From a virus: DNA of 21,293 bases. How positions within the stretch are numbered: position 1 is the first letter of the stretch; every line of letters starts with the position of its first letter. Of the stretch, positions 1 through 20,279 are shown one piece after another. Made by a program: the position numbers and the translations under genes. Location: positions 117-21,409 of the IMG/VR virus record IMGVR_UViG_3300000116_000296. The stretch is one strand, 5' to 3'. The notes under the pieces are model-generated. The model did no database searches. It was not told where the DNA came from and worked only from the letters and a program-made list of their open reading frames with translations.

Positions 1-86
1 CCTTGTGAACCTTGAGTACCGTCATCTCCTGGTGAACCTGGTGAACCATCAGTACCCTGATCACCAGTTATACCTTGGATACCTTG
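1..86 (-). CDS. Continuation of the collagen-like frame beyond the frameshift (partial, runs off the window)
   Basis: Read on the minus strand one base out of phase with the 61-2430 frame, this stretch encodes QGIQGITGDQGTDG followed by SPGSPGDDGTQGSQ. That is uninterrupted Gly-X-Y of the same composition as the neighbouring fibre. No start codon is expected, since it is the rest of the same shaft. It either joins the upstream frame after correction of a one-base indel at 87-90, or is the untranslated remainder of a truncated gene. The fibre's C-terminal tip would lie outside the window. Confidence 0.6.
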
Positions 87-1616
87 TGATACCTTGAGTA
101 CCTTGAGTACCTTGTGAACCATCAGTACCTTGTGAACCTTGAGTACCATCAGTACCCTGATCTCCAGCACCTTGGACACCTTGAGTACCTTGTGAACCAT
201 CAGTACCTTGTGAACCTTGAGTACCATCAGTACCTTGATCTCCAGCACCTTGGACACCTTGAATACCCTGATCTCCAGCACCTTGGACACCTTGGACACC
301 TTGAGTACCTTGTGATCCATCAGTACCCTGATCACCAGTTATACCTTGAGTACCTTGTGAACCTTGAATACCCTGATCTCCAATACCTTGGACACCTTGA
401 GTACCCTGAGTTCCTTGTGAACCATCAGATCCTTGAGTACCTTGAATACCCTGATCTCCAGCACCTTGGACACCTTGAGTACCCTGAGTTCCTTGTGAAC
501 CATCAGATCCTTGAGTACCTTGAATACCCTGATCTCCAGCGCCTTGGACACCTTGAGTTCCTTGTGAACCATCAGTACCCTGATCACCAGTTATACCTTG
601 GATACCTTGAGTACCTTGAGTACCTTGTGAACCATCAGATCCTTGTGAACCATCAGATCCTTGATTACCAGATGGTCCTGCTGGTCCCGGAGATCCTGAT
701 GGACCGGGGGATCCTGGAGATCCTGATGGACCAGGAGATCCTGATGGACCAGGGGATCCAACATCACCGTCATTTCCACTTGATCCCTGAACACCTTGAT
801 CACCAGTTATACCCTGTATTCCTTGAATACCCTGATCACCTTTATCTACTGCTTGACCAGATAGTCCCTGAATCCCTTGATCTCCATCAGATCCCTGTGC
901 TCCGGTTTCACCTTGTGTACCATCAAAACCCTGTATTCCTTGAATACCCTGATCACCTTTATCTACTGCTTGACCAGATAATCCCTGTACACCCTGTACA
1001 CCTTGATCTCCAGTTATACCTTGGATACCTTGAATACCCTGATCACCTTTATCTACTGCCTGACCAGATAATCCCTGTACACCTTGATCTCCAGTTATAC
1101 CTTGAATTCCTTGGTCACCGACACCTTGGATACCTTGAATTCCTTGATCACCTTTATCTACTGCTTGACCAGATAATCCCTGTACACCCTGTACACCTTG
1201 ATCTCCAGTTATACCTTGGATACCTTGATCACCAAGACCTTGTACACCTTGATCTCCAGTTATACCTTGAATTCCTTGGTCACCAGTTATGCCCTGTACA
1301 CCTTGGTCACCAGTTATACCTTGAATTCCTTGGTCACCAGTTATACCTTGAATTCCTTGGTCACCAGTTATGCCCTGTACACCTTGGTCACCAGTTATAC
1401 CCTGTACACCTTGATCTCCAATTATGCCTTGAGTACCTTGAATACCTTGTGAACCATCAAATCCTTGATTACCTTGGTCACCAGTTATACCCTGAATACC
1501 TTGAATACCTTGGTCACCCTTATCTACTGCTTGACCAGATAGTCCCTGAATCCCTTGATCTCCAGGTCCTCCTTGAATACCTTGAACACCTTGAACACCC
1601 TGAATACCTTGAGATC
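61..1616 (-). repeat. 9-base-unit collagen-coding repeat tract
   Basis: About 1.55 kb built from 9-base units that, read on the minus strand, encode Gly-X-Y triplets. Typical plus-strand units are accttgagt, accttggat, accttgtga and accatcagt. Longer blocks recur almost identically, such as the segments at 143-260, 440-500 and 520-560, and the tandem units around 1240-1410. Such tracts expand and contract by slippage and are difficult to assemble from short reads. Confidence 0.9.
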
Positions 1617-2430
1617 CAACAATCGCATTTCGATATACTATTACATCTAAACTTTCCCCAGAATCAAGAGACTCCGTCAGTGTTATAGTATCTCCCCCGC
1701 TTAAAGAATATAATGATGGTGATAAGTGAACACCATTTAAATAAACATCTACATCTTCTTCAGATGAATATTCGATAGTGAAGGATATCTGATCTTGTTC
1801 TGAAATAAAATTATAAAGAATTCTTTCAAATCCAAAAACACTATTAACACTAGCCCAACTAACACCTACACCAGTTGAGGTTAATATTGAATTGGCAATA
1901 CCAACATTATCATTAACATCATAGAAAACATCTGTTAACTTTAGACTTCCACGGATATCGACGTTTGCTTGAGGATTTGTGGTTCCAATGCCAAGAGAAT
2001 TTGTAGAACTGTCAAAGACCAATAAAGTATCTGTTACAAACTCCCCATTTTCATTAAAGATAACTTCTTTGGAAGATCCAGGAGCAAAAACAGTAATTGT
2101 TGAAATTGATCCGCTAGCAGTTGCAGTTATAGCTGCGCCAACAAAATTTACTTTAGATACACTGTTTGCAGTTCCGACAAGAACTCCCTCATCAAATATA
2201 CTGATTCCACCTAAAACCTCTGCAGGAGGAATTTCAACCCAATACTTATCATAAGAAACAGGATCATCAATCGTAACCAAATAATAATATTTGTCAGAAA
2301 TTGGTAGCTGCTTTTCTCCAGGATATCCAAGATCTGGTTCTGCCTGATCAAGACCAAGATATTGATATCTTTCGGTTGAAATTCCAGATATTGGTGTTTT
2401 TTTAACTCGGTTACTAAAATATTTTGCCAT
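61..2430 (-). CDS. Collagen-like tail fibre/virion protein, frame broken near its left end
   Basis: A 789-residue reading frame whose ATG lies 3 bases after the preceding structural gene. Residues 1-271 form a globular head. Part of it (around residues 145-185, with LGIGTTNPQANVDIRG) resembles the 'GIGTT.P...LDV.G' units of phage fibre proteins and similar units in the 1285-residue protein of this window. From about residue 272 it is Gly-X-Y, mostly GIQ, GVQ, GDQ, GTQ and GIT, with one proline-rich patch (GPSGSPGPSG, near 670-765). Such sequences form trimeric collagen-like shafts in phage fibres. Five copies of GQAVDKG and several G-x-GDQ steps break the triplet pattern. The frame stops at 61-63 after an off-phase tail (ITRYPRYNW), because one repeat unit at 81-90 is 10 bases instead of 9. 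The Gly-X-Y frame continues to base 1 in another phase. Probably a host-contact fibre; the receptor is unknown. Confidence 0.8.
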   Translation of the reverse strand: MAKYFSNRVKKTPISGISTERYQYLGLDQAEPDLGYPGEKQLPISDKYYYLVTIDDPVSYDKYWVEIPPAEVLGGISIFDEGVLVGTANSVSKVNFVGAAITATASGSISTITVFAPGSSKEVIFNENGEFVTDTLLVFDSSTNSLGIGTTNPQANVDIRGSLKLTDVFYDVNDNVGIANSILTSTGVGVSWASVNSVFGFERILYNFISEQDQISFTIEYSSEEDVDVYLNGVHLSPSLYSLSGGDTITLTESLDSGESLDVIVYRNAIVGSQGIQGVQGVQGIQGGPGDQGIQGLSGQAVDKGDQGIQGIQGITGDQGNQGFDGSQGIQGTQGIIGDQGVQGITGDQGVQGITGDQGIQGITGDQGIQGITGDQGVQGITGDQGIQGITGDQGVQGLGDQGIQGITGDQGVQGVQGLSGQAVDKGDQGIQGIQGVGDQGIQGITGDQGVQGLSGQAVDKGDQGIQGIQGITGDQGVQGVQGLSGQAVDKGDQGIQGIQGFDGTQGETGAQGSDGDQGIQGLSGQAVDKGDQGIQGIQGITGDQGVQGSSGNDGDVGSPGPSGSPGPSGSPGSPGPSGSPGPAGPSGNQGSDGSQGSDGSQGTQGTQGIQGITGDQGTDGSQGTQGVQGAGDQGIQGTQGSDGSQGTQGTQGVQGAGDQGIQGTQGSDGSQGTQGTQGVQGIGDQGIQGSQGTQGITGDQGTDGSQGTQGVQGVQGAGDQGIQGVQGAGDQGTDGTQGSQGTDGSQGTQGVQGAGDQGTDGTQGSQGTDGSQGTQGTQGITRYPRYNW

Positions 2431-2433
2431 TCT

Positions 2434-3093
2434 TTAAACGGTAGAATTCTCTAGTATGCTTCCAATGAATTCTAGTTGGAGTGGTCCAACTAACCCACCA
2501 CTTACATAAGTGTGTGATATCCCATTGGCACTGCCAACATTTGTAGTAAATGTTTTGGATCCACCAACATCGCTTTCAATGTTGTCTATAACAAAAGATC
2601 TTTGTGGACTAGGAAATATAGTAGTTGTTATTCCAGATCCTCCTGGACAAGACATTTCAATACCAGACATTGTAATTTCACTATCAGATTCAAATCCATG
2701 TGGTGTAGATGTTGTTATTGTTGCAACTCCCGTCGGTTCATAATATTCAACATTAGTAATTGTAACAATTCCAGATTGAACTGAAGTTATATAAACTGAA
2801 TCCAGAACAGATGCGGTTTTTTCTAATACTAATCTCCCATCAACCAAAATAACTGCATCATTCGGTGGCACTTCAACTTCTTTGATGATTCTTATATCTC
2901 TAGTATTTCCTGTACTTCTAGATTCTCTTCTTTGAATAAAAGTAACTTTTGGGTAAGTTCCTACGCCGACATTTGACACTTGAGCATAAAGCAATATAGA
3001 AGATGTCCCCGTAGGAACTTCATATAGTTTTTGCTCTCCAGGTGCAACTGGAGTGGATACTGATAGAAACTTATTAACTGGTGCAATTGCCAT
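2434..3093 (-). CDS. Virion structural protein, 219 residues, role unknown
   Basis: A complete ATG-started gene that begins 9 bases after the 1285-residue gene and ends 3 bases before the collagen-like gene, so it belongs to the same late block. The first half is beta-rich and ordinary. The second half carries the pattern ATITTSTPHGF...SGIEMSC...FVIDNI...GISHTYVSGG, which I recall as recurrent in large structural proteins of marine T4-like phages. There is no signal peptide or membrane segment. Its position between two fibre-like proteins suggests a baseplate, fibre-joint or fibre-associated subunit. That role is inferred from context only. Confidence 0.65.
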   Translation of the reverse strand: MAIAPVNKFLSVSTPVAPGEQKLYEVPTGTSSILLYAQVSNVGVGTYPKVTFIQRRESRSTGNTRDIRIIKEVEVPPNDAVILVDGRLVLEKTASVLDSVYITSVQSGIVTITNVEYYEPTGVATITTSTPHGFESDSEITMSGIEMSCPGGSGITTTIFPSPQRSFVIDNIESDVGGSKTFTTNVGSANGISHTYVSGGLVGPLQLEFIGSILENSTV

Positions 3094-3102
3094 TTTATTT
3101 TA

Positions 3103-6100
3103 TTATCCCCCCAAAGCAAGTATCAATGGTGTTAAGTTTGCCTGTATCGCTCTAGTAAAGTCTCTTCCAGAAATAGTAGATGTAGTTTGATCAATTGTTA
3201 AACCTTCACCAATCCTAAAGTTACCTTTTTGATCTGTACTTGTGAATGGAATTTGCCCCCCATTGATAGCAACAACTTCATTTTCAGGTATTGGGACACC
3301 ACCCTGGAAGGGGTTTGCTCTATTTATATCTGTGCCAGCACCAATATATTCGAAGGAGTGAGAGCTGGTAATAATCCTACTAAGTCTTCTAAATGATACA
3401 CCAACATTTGAGTTAACAGAATATGGTACAAATTCATTAAAGGTTACAGTAGTAATACCCAAGATTGATGGTTCTGTTGCAGTATTAACAGTATATAATA
3501 TTGGATCTGTAATTGCTTCTGCAGTTGCTCCACCAGAACCAGAAATAGTAATTGTAATATCTTGTTGATTGCTTCCTGTTCCTGATGGTAGGAAGTTTCT
3601 GCCACTCGAAATAACATCAATGGAAGAAATTGTTCCATCTGCATCAACATTTGCAGAAAGTTCTGCCAGAATTCCTTCTGGTCCTAGTGGTTCGGAAATT
3701 GTAATGTTTGGTGGTGCTGCTGCACTGTATCCAGATCCTCCATCTGTAACTCTTATGGATCTAATAACTCTAAGTGGTTCTGTAACTATACCTGCTTTTA
3801 CTCCCGTATCTGGATAATCATCCAGATTAATTTTAAAAAATACTCCTTGCCCATCAAATGGTTTTCTTACATTTTCTTCAGAGTCTTTAACACCATAAAA
3901 TACATAAGTATCTTCTTCGGCAGAAACTGTTGCTCCAGTAGTAATTCCAGTAAATTCATCTCCACTTGTTCCATCCGCATATAAACCATAATTACCAAAT
4001 GAAGAGTTTGAGTTTGTTATGTCACATTGACCACCACTACCAGCAAAAATTCCAATATTGCAATTAATAGTGAAAATAGAAACTAATTGTGCATATGCTT
4101 TGTTAGTAACAGAAACTCCAATACCATTTTGGTTATACTGTGTAAACGAGTCACAAACCATACATTTGAGATCTTGTCCAAGATTGTTTGTTCCTGTAAA
4201 GGCAGCAGAAACATGATCTCCATCAATTTTCATACCAATACTATCGGTCATAAAATTAGTACAGTTACGAATATATGGAGACCTCCATCTTCCACTTGGT
4301 CCTTCATTGCAAGGACCTGGATCTAGGAATCCAGATCTAGCACTACCAATTCCTACTGGTGGTGGAAATGCTACAGCAGCAGCAGTAATGTTAATAGGTG
4401 CTACATCATCATACGGATCTTTACTATATGCAAAACTCAAACTATCAATGAGACATCCTCTCCTAACATAGAAAACATCGTCATTGTTCTGTGGATAAAT
4501 TGTTACTAGTCTTAGGTCTTGTCCAACGACGGAAACATCAGTTCTTAATCCAATTGGATTATTTTCAGCATAAACACCAGAACGAACCATAATTGTATCA
4601 CCTGGTTGTGCTATTTCTGCTGCAGCACCAATAGTAAGTTTTGCTGAACCTTCTGTTCTTCCATTATTATCATCATTTCCATACTTTGTAACATATATAA
4701 TGTTCTTTGCATCTGCACCTGCTGGAGACCAAACAATTTTTCCGTTTGGATTATTAATATTCGGCGCAGCAGATGGTCCACTTCCAATAATAGTTGTAAC
4801 TATTCCCGCACAAACTGTGATAGCGGATACAACATTAGCACATCCATCTGGATCAATATTTGAACTATAGTTTGGATCGTCTTGTAGTGAAAGATCCCGA
4901 ATAAGAGAAATACTATTACCAACTCCTTGATAAGATCTGGTTGGTGGTAAGTTATTAATTACATATCTTGATACTTGAGCAGCAGTTGTAATGGCAACGA
5001 TTGTAGCATCTTTAATGCTATATCCATTTACATCCGTGCCAGTAATATGTTGTAGGACTGACCCATTATAATAAGATAAACCCGCACCTACGCAACGTGA
5101 ATTACCACCTCGTGTAATATCATAAGTAACTGCTTTTAGAATATCTTTGATATCATCTTTACAAGATGTGTAATCTGCGGATGATAATTCGAAAGCTGGG
5201 TTTTTATAGTCAGTGCTAGTTAAAAATCCAACTGCTTCATTTGCAATAAAGTCTAAGTTTAAACGTATGAGATTGGCAGCATCATAGAATCTTCCACCAA
5301 TAATATTGCCAGAAGTATCAACCCCTACGCTTGTTAAAACATTTCTTGGAACTTGGTAATTTTCATTTTTAAATCCAACTTCATTATTTGTGTCATAAAT
5401 TGCTTTTTGAAAGCGAACATCCTTATTAAAATCAACATCCTGTGATGGTGTTACACTACCAAATCCAACACTTCCTATTCCAGTTGTTGTGATAACTGTA
5501 CCACCAACACCAACTTGAAGAGTAGAATTTAAAGATGTTGCCCCATCAACTGTTAATGTATCATCAAAATCAACTGATTCTCCAACATTTAATCTTTTTA
5601 CAATACCGACTCCACCATCAATTTGAACAGATCCATTTGTTGGATTAGTAGAATCCGTTGTATTGTTAAATCTGGTGAGTCCATCAACATCAAGAGTACT
5701 GTTTAATGTAGTAGCACCATCAACATCAAGGGAAGAATTAAGTGTAGTAGCACCATCAACGTCAAGACCAGCGTTGAGTGTAGTATTACCATCAACGTCA
5801 AGAGTATTGTTTAAGGTAGTAGCACCATCAACATCAAGAGCAGCATTAAGTGTGGTAGTGCCATCAACGTCAAGGGAAGAATTAAGTGTAGTAGCACCAT
5901 CAACATCAAGGGAAGAATTAAGTGTAGTATTACCATCAACGTCAAGAGTACTGTTTAAGGTAGTAGCACCATCAACATCAAGAGCAGCATTAAGTGTGGT
6001 AGTGCCGTCAACATCAAGAGTATTGTTTAAAGTGGTAGCACCGTCAACATCAAGAGCAGCGTTGAGTGTAGTAATACCATCAACATCAAGAGCAGCATTA

Positions 6101-6960
6101 AGTGTAGTAGTACCATCAACGTCAAGACCAGATTCAAGTGTAGTATTACCACCAACATTCAAAGTTTCTGATATTTCTACACTTCCAGTAACATCTAAAT
6201 CTGCAGTTGGTGTTGAGTTATTAATACCTACTTTAGAATTTCTATAGATATTTCCACTAGCATTAGATCCCCAATAATCATAAACGAAAATATCAGCAAT
6301 ACTAGCATTATTTGAATTAACAGATGCCTGAACAGTATCTGTTGATGAACCAAAACTATTTCCAGCAACTAAATTTAATCCACTAAATGAAGTAAGACCT
6401 ACTAAAACTTCGTCATTATAAACAAAAATACCCTCACTAAAGGATGGTTCAAAGTTTACCCACCTAATACCATCTCCATCTTTAGTTAAGAAAGCTCCAA
6501 CATCACCAGGACTATTTGTAGAATCATAAATTTCATCATCGATTTTTATACTACCGGCAACGTCTAGTCGTTGCTCTGGGGATGTGCTTCCAATTCCAAT
6601 ATTTTGATTAACTATAATATTTTCAACAACATTAACACTACCATCAATATCAAGTTTATATTCTGGATCAGTTTTTCCTATTCCAGTATTTCCATTTTCT
6701 AATACTGTAAATAATGAACCACCAATTCCAACTTCTAATTTTTGTCTTGCTGAAAGAATATCAACAGTCAAAGACGAGTTAATGTCTATGTCACCAATAA
6801 AAGTAGTTAAACCAGTAAAGACTGAATTACCAGTTACATTTATACTATCAAGATCTAATACGTCCTTAGTAAAATCATAATTTAGTTTTCCGTAAATCGT
6901 CAGATTTTCTACAAAATCATCGCCAGAACTGAAAGTATATTTGTCTGGAGCTAATCCCAT
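3103..6960 (-). CDS. Large baseplate/tail-fibre structural protein with 12-residue repeats and a beta-helix-like domain
   Basis: A 1285-residue protein started by ATG with a clear ribosome site (AGGAG, 7 bases upstream). Three parts are visible. Residues 1-266 include units of the form GIG.T.PE..LD..GS, also seen in the collagen-like protein. Residues 267-434 are fourteen 12-residue units (one LNVGG unit, then thirteen LDVDG units). From about 750 to 910 the pattern IIYVTKYGNDDNNG...IAQPGDTIMVRSGVY resembles right-handed beta-helix (pectate-lyase-like) domains of phage fibres. Near residue 1073 there is a GGSGYSAAAPPNITI motif, and the end is FRIGEGLTIDQTTST...FTRAIQANLTPLILALGG. It is probably a peripheral baseplate or fibre protein, analogous in position to T4 gp10-gp12. 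I cannot assign an exact T4 counterpart. Confidence 0.7.
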   Translation of the reverse strand: MGLAPDKYTFSSGDDFVENLTIYGKLNYDFTKDVLDLDSINVTGNSVFTGLTTFIGDIDINSSLTVDILSARQKLEVGIGGSLFTVLENGNTGIGKTDPEYKLDIDGSVNVVENIIVNQNIGIGSTSPEQRLDVAGSIKIDDEIYDSTNSPGDVGAFLTKDGDGIRWVNFEPSFSEGIFVYNDEVLVGLTSFSGLNLVAGNSFGSSTDTVQASVNSNNASIADIFVYDYWGSNASGNIYRNSKVGINNSTPTADLDVTGSVEISETLNVGGNTTLESGLDVDGTTTLNAALDVDGITTLNAALDVDGATTLNNTLDVDGTTTLNAALDVDGATTLNSTLDVDGNTTLNSSLDVDGATTLNSSLDVDGTTTLNAALDVDGATTLNNTLDVDGNTTLNAGLDVDGATTLNSSLDVDGATTLNSTLDVDGLTRFNNTTDSTNPTNGSVQIDGGVGIVKRLNVGESVDFDDTLTVDGATSLNSTLQVGVGGTVITTTGIGSVGFGSVTPSQDVDFNKDVRFQKAIYDTNNEVGFKNENYQVPRNVLTSVGVDTSGNIIGGRFYDAANLIRLNLDFIANEAVGFLTSTDYKNPAFELSSADYTSCKDDIKDILKAVTYDITRGGNSRCVGAGLSYYNGSVLQHITGTDVNGYSIKDATIVAITTAAQVSRYVINNLPPTRSYQGVGNSISLIRDLSLQDDPNYSSNIDPDGCANVVSAITVCAGIVTTIIGSGPSAAPNINNPNGKIVWSPAGADAKNIIYVTKYGNDDNNGRTEGSAKLTIGAAAEIAQPGDTIMVRSGVYAENNPIGLRTDVSVVGQDLRLVTIYPQNNDDVFYVRRGCLIDSLSFAYSKDPYDDVAPINITAAAVAFPPPVGIGSARSGFLDPGPCNEGPSGRWRSPYIRNCTNFMTDSIGMKIDGDHVSAAFTGTNNLGQDLKCMVCDSFTQYNQNGIGVSVTNKAYAQLVSIFTINCNIGIFAGSGGQCDITNSNSSFGNYGLYADGTSGDEFTGITTGATVSAEEDTYVFYGVKDSEENVRKPFDGQGVFFKINLDDYPDTGVKAGIVTEPLRVIRSIRVTDGGSGYSAAAPPNITISEPLGPEGILAELSANVDADGTISSIDVISSGRNFLPSGTGSNQQDITITISGSGGATAEAITDPILYTVNTATEPSILGITTVTFNEFVPYSVNSNVGVSFRRLSRIITSSHSFEYIGAGTDINRANPFQGGVPIPENEVVAINGGQIPFTSTDQKGNFRIGEGLTIDQTTSTISGRDFTRAIQANLTPLILALGG
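3321..3328 (-). promoter_or_regulatory. Exact T4 late-promoter octamer TATAAATA inside the 1285-residue gene
   Basis: The minus strand reads TATAAATA, identical to the T4 late consensus, about 228 bases upstream of the 219-residue gene. It could give extra transcription of that gene and the collagen-like fibre. It also simply encodes Asp-Ile-Asn-Arg in the host gene, so chance is possible. Confidence 0.3.
5659..6162 (-). repeat. Fourteen tandem 36-base units (12 residues each)
   Basis: This stretch is exactly 504 bases, or 14 x 36. The first unit in reading order encodes LNVGGNTTLESG. The next thirteen follow LDVDG-x-TTLN-x-x, where the first variable position is T, I, A, N or L and the last two are AA, NT, ST, SS or AG; the final unit is LDVDGLTRFNNT. 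The plus-strand motif is 'ccatcaac(a/g)tcaag'. The very regular spacing suggests one turn of a beta-helix or a trimeric beta-shaft per unit, and recent expansion by unequal exchange. Confidence 0.92.
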
Positions 6961-19052: not shown

Positions 19053-19700
19053 ATGGGATACTTTAGAGAACTTCCAAATCTATTATATCCTTCTTATCAG
19101 TCTGATAAGAATTCATCTCTTAACTACATTGAGGTTAAAAACCTCTTCCGTAGAGTCAAACTAAGAGAAGATCTTCAGAATGTTTTAACTATCTTTAATA
19201 AGTATGAAGTTCCAGAAGGATCAAGACCAGAACTTATTGCTGAAGAAGTTTATGGAGATCCAGAACTTGATTGGGTGGTTCTAATTACGGCAGGAATTAT
19301 TAACGTTCGAGATGATTGGCCTCTTTCAGATCGAGATCTCTATAATTATTCCTACGAGAAATATGGAACCGATTTGAACGCAACGCGCTTTTATGAAACT
19401 ACAGAAGTTAAAGACTCTAATGGTCGTTTAATTCTTCCCAAAGGAAAAGTAGTTGACGGCACTTTTACAATTCCAAATCCTGCTGATCCAACGGCAACTC
19501 TAAATCCAGTTACTGGGATTAGTAACTACGAGTATGAAGTTCGTAAGAATGATAAAAAGAGGAGCATCTACATATTAAAACCAAGATACTTACAGCAGTT
19601 CTTGAATGATATGAGAGACATCTTTACATATCAAAAATCTTCTCAGTATATCAACGAAAAGTATATTCAAACTGAGAATCTAAACATCACTCTTCCATAA
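19053..19700 (+). CDS. 53: gp53-like baseplate wedge protein
   Basis: A 215-residue protein (T4 gp53 is 196). Typical features are FRELPNLLYPSY at the start, VKNLFRRVKLREDL, and EEVYGDPELDWVVLITAGII with DDWPLSDRDLYNY and EKYG (residues 64-108). This is the family's signature region. The remaining half is beta-rich, with YILKPRYLQQFLNDM near the end. In T4, gp53 joins wedges to each other and to the hub. It is the last gene of the rightward block, and its 3' end overlaps the 3' end of the opposing Mom-like gene by 21 bases. Confidence 0.8.
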   Translation: MGYFRELPNLLYPSYQSDKNSSLNYIEVKNLFRRVKLREDLQNVLTIFNKYEVPEGSRPELIAEEVYGDPELDWVVLITAGIINVRDDWPLSDRDLYNYSYEKYGTDLNATRFYETTEVKDSNGRLILPKGKVVDGTFTIPNPADPTATLNPVTGISNYEYEVRKNDKKRSIYILKPRYLQQFLNDMRDIFTYQKSSQYINEKYIQTENLNITLP

Positions 19701-20279
19701 GAGTTCTAGTTTCTTATCAAACATCATAACGTATCGGTGCTTGCGGGAGCGTTCTTTCCATTCTCCCTCGGCACCTTTTACTTTGCCACGAGAGTGCTTA
19801 GTTCCGTCTGCATAGTAGAAATCTTTTTTTGGTTCTGTGAGACCTGCATATTTAAAGTTACAAGCACGATAAATTGTACCAGAATGGTAATCTGAATCAG
19901 CATAAGAAATGATTGCTTTAACTTCAGTATCTTTCCGAAGTTGTCTAATCGCTCGTGACACAAACCAAGAAGTGATGTTATATTCGCATGACTGCGTATC
20001 AGGGTGGATGCAAAGTCTTGAGAGTTCGAAGAGTCCTTGTTGTTCATTACGTTCTAATCCAAATGCTCCTTGTGCGACTTCGGGAACAGGGAGTCCAGTA
20101 AAAATACAGACTCCCTTGATACCACCGATATTCAGTGGACTGAAATCATTGCTCTCATATAAACCGTAGTTGTATCCAGACTTAAAGGACTTCGAAAAGT
20201 CCTTAAGATAATGAAACCGCAGAAGTAATTCTGCGGCTTCGGATTTACTTACACGGTCTATTGTGTAATCAGATTTCAC
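19680..20279 (-). CDS. Mom-like (GNAT-type) DNA-modification protein
   Basis: A 199-residue protein starting with GTG that overlaps the gp32 stop (GTGA). The central and C-terminal pattern matches my recollection of the phage Mu Mom family: FELSRLCIHPD (84-94), SWFVSRAIRQL (104-114), ISYADSDYHSGTIYRACNF (124-142), KYAGL, DGTKHSRG and SRKHRYVMMFD (178-188). Mu Mom has an acetyltransferase-like fold and converts adenine in DNA to a methylcarbamoyl-amino form that blocks restriction enzymes. By analogy this protein may decorate phage DNA. The N-terminal part is shorter than in Mu Mom (about 240 residues in all). Other GNAT-type acyltransferases are possible. It is in the early gp32 unit, which fits a DNA-acting enzyme, not a virion part. 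Confidence 0.7.
   Translation of the reverse strand: MKSDYTIDRVSKSEAAELLLRFHYLKDFSKSFKSGYNYGLYESNDFSPLNIGGIKGVCIFTGLPVPEVAQGAFGLERNEQQGLFELSRLCIHPDTQSCEYNITSWFVSRAIRQLRKDTEVKAIISYADSDYHSGTIYRACNFKYAGLTEPKKDFYYADGTKHSRGKVKGAEGEWKERSRKHRYVMMFDKKLELLWKSDV
20185..20204 (-). other. Perfect 8-base-pair hairpin with UUCG loop inside the Mom-like coding region
   Basis: On the minus strand AAGGACTT-TTCG-AAGTCCTT forms an 8-base-pair stem with a four-base loop, covering codons 26-31 of the Mom-like gene. It lacks a downstream U-run, so it is not a standard terminator. It might affect mRNA stability or ribosome progress, or be chance. Confidence 0.35.

Follow-up and report, generated by a model that had tools for sequence, protein, structure and literature searches.

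A frame break in the collagen-like fibre array of an IMG/VR virus record, very probably an assembly consensus error

The described system closest to the locus analysed here is the collagen-like fibre of T4-type cyanophages and marine myoviruses (Kyanoviridae), with which it shares a PF01391 array, PHROG tail fibre families, and a baseplate/tail neighbourhood. According to a passage in a description of the pelagimyophages, triple collagen repeats also occur among the domains of their putative receptor-binding proteins (PMC7029224). The N-terminus of the fibre studied here was similar to those of the tail fibre proteins of Synechococcus and Prochlorococcus phages, whereas, unlike the collagen-like fibres of the Kyanoviridae, this copy is cut by the end of the contig and contains two changes of the Gly-X-Y frame.

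Repeat-collapse consensus artefacts are a kind of fault in short-read metagenome assemblies, and the locus resembles them in that Ns stand at differing positions of the repeat copies, the frame is broken, and the contig end is adjacent; it differs from them in that the merging step is, for this record, one that we infer. As stated in a passage of one report, contig sets of several assemblies were merged with minimus2 in at least one metagenome study, which also deals with SOAPdenovo and Newbler (PMC4149020).

Fibre gene and affiliation of the record

The window, i.e., the whole stretch of 21,293 nucleotides that was analysed, corresponds to bases 117-21409 of a 21,409-base IMG/VR virus record, which has 116 bases more on the left. 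The tail tube protein matched 158 phage records, all of which were named Synechococcus, Prochlorococcus, cyanophage or marine virus. The best match (48.6%) came from the single-cell marine virus AG-345-L05, another record of which is filed under Kyanoviridae, and other genes in the window matched T4-type baseplate, head-closure, and gp32 families. The source is most likely a cyanophage-like phage of the T4 type with an ordinary collagen-like tail fibre. Beside the gp32 homologue, a Mom-family protein was found at 19680-20279 on the minus strand (Pfam PF25680, E 5.8e-25). Mom proteins are DNA-modification enzymes. This one matched 184 phage records, with Roseobacter phage CRP-212 as the best match (52% over 99%) and no cyanophage in the best 10 of the 184.

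The fibre gene, an open reading frame at 61-2430 (minus strand) encoding 789 aa, was composed of a 270-aa non-collagen N-terminal part followed by a long Gly-X-Y array, of which the PF01391 match covers 8 stretches (Table 1). The Gly-X-Y repeat region by which collagen-like phage tail fibres are recognised is therefore present, and the gene is located in a tail/baseplate module with an N-terminal part as in tail fibres. A second repeat in the window, a 36-base tandem array of 13.3 copies at 5681-6158 coding for a 12-aa repeat of the type TTLNAALDVDGA, lies within a large fibre gene at 3103-6960 (minus strand).

Table 1. Features of the fibre locus, in window coordinates
Feature	Position	Strand	Basis
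10-base unit with one base surplus, breaking the Gly-X-Y frame	about 81-90 (record 197-207)	-	sequence re-read
Gly-X-Y continuation in the neighbouring frame, reaching the window edge and then the N block	1..80	-	sequence re-read
Apparent out-of-frame tail and stop of the ORF 61-2430	61..80	-	ORF translation
Collagen-like Gly-X-Y region, 169 Gly codons in register	91-1620	-	Pfam Collagen PF01391, E 9.5e-68
N-terminal non-collagen fibre part, 270 aa, common to relatives	1621..2430	-	comparison with relatives
Neighbouring conserved 219-aa protein, phrog_1276, function unknown; guide to syntenic relatives	2434..3093	-	

Two frame changes at the left end of the record

The initial annotation had reported a surplus of one base at 81-90, a truncation of the reading frame at 61, and a Gly-X-Y pattern that continues beyond the break, and all three were borne out upon re-reading. 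Units to the left of 81 were one base out of register with those to the right of 91. The frame of the fibre gene ended in ...GTQGITRYPRYNW-stop with the tail ITRYPRYNW-stop, such that only RYPRYNW follows the last Gly-Ile-Thr, while bases 3-90 read in the neighbouring frame gave SQGIQGITGDQGTDGSPGSPGDDGTQGSQ, which was free of stops up to the window edge and contained 9 Gly codons spaced by exactly 9 bases. The accompanying claim of a uniform 9-base length for the surrounding units proved too broad, as 153 of the 168 Gly-to-Gly spacings in the ORF frame at 91-1620 were of 9 bases, and spacings of 6 bases (9 cases), 18 bases (5) and 3 bases (1) also occurred. Nevertheless, all 168 were frame-keeping, and the break at 81-90 was the sole frame-breaking unit inside the array of the window.

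The 116 bases to the left of the window contained six single Ns, at record positions 101, 103, 110, 113, 114, and 116, which are all the ambiguous bases of the record; the window itself has none. Because the last of them stands at record position 116, the window starts immediately past the final N. Across this 16-base N block (record 101-116), which lies about 80 bases away from the 10-base unit, the Gly-X-Y frame changed for a second time, roughly 90 bases further left than the break at 81-90. The repeat accordingly uses three frames, namely one to the right of the anomaly, one between the anomaly and the Ns, and one to the left of the Ns, where it persisted up to the very end of the record with no C-terminal domain in view. 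The true end of the fibre lies outside the record. Both changes fell within the final 210 bases of the record, at most about 110 bases apart, and none was found in the approximately 1,500 bases that the array spans on the right side. Ambiguous bases accompanied by further inconsistency at the site, by which an assembly artefact is recognised, were therefore both found here, the former as the six Ns and the latter as the second frame change, no more than about 110 bases from the first. The scattered single Ns do not have the pattern of a masked stretch and appear to be unresolved consensus columns. A view of the left 206 bases as no more than a copied part of the right array was rejected, since their units differ from the right ones and exact 40-base stretches shared between them were few.

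The composition of both sites was then compared with the real units of the array. The Ns of the block fall at positions where array units differ, and the pattern ACCNTGNNTNCC was obtained as the column consensus of two real array units, with two such unit pairs in existence; four Ns placed at random on a real 12-mer were explicable in the same way in 2.8% of 20,000 trials. Similarly, there were 8 ways to write the ten-base ACCANTNAGT as two real 9-base units merged with a gap. Within the 10-base unit at 81-90, four different real units were contained as one-base shortenings (present in the array in 11, 4, 1, and 1 copies), and 1.6% of simulated one-base insertions reached four real units. As these tests were devised after inspection of the sequence, they support rather than prove a merging of repeat copies, and the reading of ACCNTGNNTNCC, ACCANTNAGT, and the 10-base unit as joined copies is only suggestive. 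The Ns, and probably the 10-base unit as well, thus read like consensus positions at which different repeat copies were merged.

Frame conservation and fibre ends in comparison loci

To place these frame changes on a common scale, runs of at least five Gly codons 9 bases apart were scanned, with neighbouring runs taken within 200 bases. The record of the window displayed two frame changes in 181 Gly units when 300 bases were allowed between runs, and the limit of 200 bases gave the same result. None was detected among 12,903 Gly units of 80 IMG/VR loci, among 8,649 units of 80 further loci (49 of them with a tract), or among the 588 units counted in four named records (L084 to L087), which comprise three cultured cyanophages and one single-cell virus. 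By the same kind of scan on the comparison loci (no change in 12,903 Gly units), the frame break at 81-90 is beyond chance. Thirteen comparison tracts touching a contig edge (within 10 bases) were likewise devoid of frame changes (1,263 units), so that the fault must be specific to this assembly and not due to the edge alone; the 80 loci of the set compared for contig edges contained no N.

The comparison loci were gathered in three ways. The first 80 were found by the N-terminal part of the fibre, and since only L003 among them held collagen by the rule used (in a scan of 83 loci), a second set was fetched by the collagen part; the third was fetched via the neighbouring 219-aa gene. The locus counts are not fully independent, because L003, L132 and L182 are one and the same contig, and L106 is apparently a near-duplicate of L112. 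A tblastn search of phage records with the collagen stretch yielded no match, probably owing to the low-complexity filter and perhaps to out-of-frame coordinates, and carries no weight here.

The closest relative found, L003 (IMGVR_UViG_3300010354_001069), was 67% identical to the window fibre over the N-terminal 270 aa and likewise has a collagen array after this part, beside a relative of the same 219-aa gene. It differs in that its fibre was open over 1,005 aa to the contig edge without any frame change, although it also ends within the repeat. Downstream of the relatives of the 219-aa gene, 19 contigs out of 80 were read, and several of them carried a closed fibre with a non-collagen tail, such as L169 (621 aa) and L197 (1,470 aa), which have similar endings; the N-terminus of the latter resembled that of the window fibre. 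Not every one of the 19 has a collagen-rich fibre at this place, as exemplified by L210, which had none by the count used.

Among closed collagen frames, 82 of 84 distinct ones extended beyond the last tract by at least 20 aa (median 121.5 aa), in a count that covers 84 loci (80 fetched by the collagen part and the four named records), with 13 further frames open at the edge. The other two (L158 and L165, 2/84) end 16 aa past the last tract with nearly identical tails and perhaps represent a short-tailed type of collagen protein; short tails are hence not impossible.

The length of the gene varied among close relatives in which both gene ends are shared. Lengths of 519, 522, and 621 aa were found in L168, L171, and L169 (fibre from 10667), and of 681 versus 600 aa in L088 and L089, the differences consisting in each case of whole 9-base units only, so that the natural variation seen keeps the frame. 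These differences could be true length polymorphism or repeat collapse in assembly.

Origin of the frame changes

Four causes had been listed for the surplus base in the initial annotation, namely an assembly or sequencing error, a real truncation, phase variation of the tip through slippage, and slippage of the ribosome or the polymerase. An error of the first kind is strongly favoured by the N block with its second frame change together with the absence of any change in the controls, and the same two observations weaken each of the other three. Taken together, the one-base surplus is very probably an assembly consensus error that arose by merging of repeats near the contig end. An error of the sequencer at a homopolymer was set aside, because the longest run within the 10-base unit is two bases. 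In the proposed course of events, different copies of similar 9-base units, or the same array from different strains, would have been aligned near the contig end with small gaps and then merged; differing copies would have yielded N in the consensus, and an opened gap would have led to an extra base being retained, such that merging could produce two frame changes within about 110 bases. Repeat-copy merging would then be the cause at 81-90 and the true gene would be open, most likely an ordinary continuous collagen-like tail fibre whose frame would extend outside the record and reach a C-terminal tip domain. Against this reading stand the distance of about 80 bases between the Ns and the 10-base unit, the lack of any N in that unit, and the comparison tracts at contig edges, which kept their frame; the two closed frames with 16-aa tails also count against it.

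A real insertion of one base that truncates the fibre, in the whole phage or in part of its population, as a loss mutation or a standing polymorphism, would agree with the facts that the 10-base unit itself is free of N and that the reading frame meets a clean stop about 20 bases on. However, the frame would then have to change independently a second time no more than about 110 bases away, and precisely at the Ns of the record; no frame change occurred in 12,903 units elsewhere, and the truncated fibre would lose the non-collagen tail that most closed relatives have. We therefore consider this explanation unlikely. A related reading, in which the virus population truly holds fibre alleles of differing frame and the Ns and the 10-base unit are the record that the assembler left of mixed alleles, is regarded as very unlikely; if it were true, the collagen stalk of some particles would be short and tipless.

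Phase variation of the fibre tip through slipped-strand mispairing in the repeat might be suspected from the position of the site within a tandem array whose length varies among relatives. Yet, as the unit is 9 bases long, its gain or loss by slippage keeps the frame, and the length variants compared were indeed all of whole 9-base units. The homopolymer or short repeat whose slippage shifts the frame of phase-variable genes was absent, the repeat unit being of 9 bases and the 10-base unit containing no run longer than two. Moreover, a search of viral_contigs for the site, allowing 0 to 2 bases at the variable position, returned nothing and hence revealed no alleles, though very near records are perhaps omitted from this collection, and none of the papers that the literature search brought up stood out as dealing with frame-based phase variation in collagen-like fibres of phages. 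Such phase variation is accordingly given scarcely any credence. Programmed ribosomal or polymerase slippage joining the two frames would at least account for the fact that the Gly-X-Y frame does go on, but it would require a slippery site at the junction, and neither an X-XXY-YYZ heptamer of the type sought nor CTTTGA, CCCTGA, or TCCTGA was found in the 110 bases around the site. In addition, the frame would have to slip once more at the N block, and the arrangement was seen in no examined relative, the gene of L003 being continuous to its contig edge. This explanation is thus improbable in the extreme.

With the surplus base most readily ascribed to the assembly, a false lead is removed, and citing the record as an example of a truncated or phase-variable phage fibre should be avoided. 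As a rule for controls, when a collagen array is out of frame in a metagenome contig, an assembly fault should be assumed first, especially near Ns and a contig end, because the phage Gly-X-Y arrays examined here kept their frame and comparable relatives varied by whole 9-base units.
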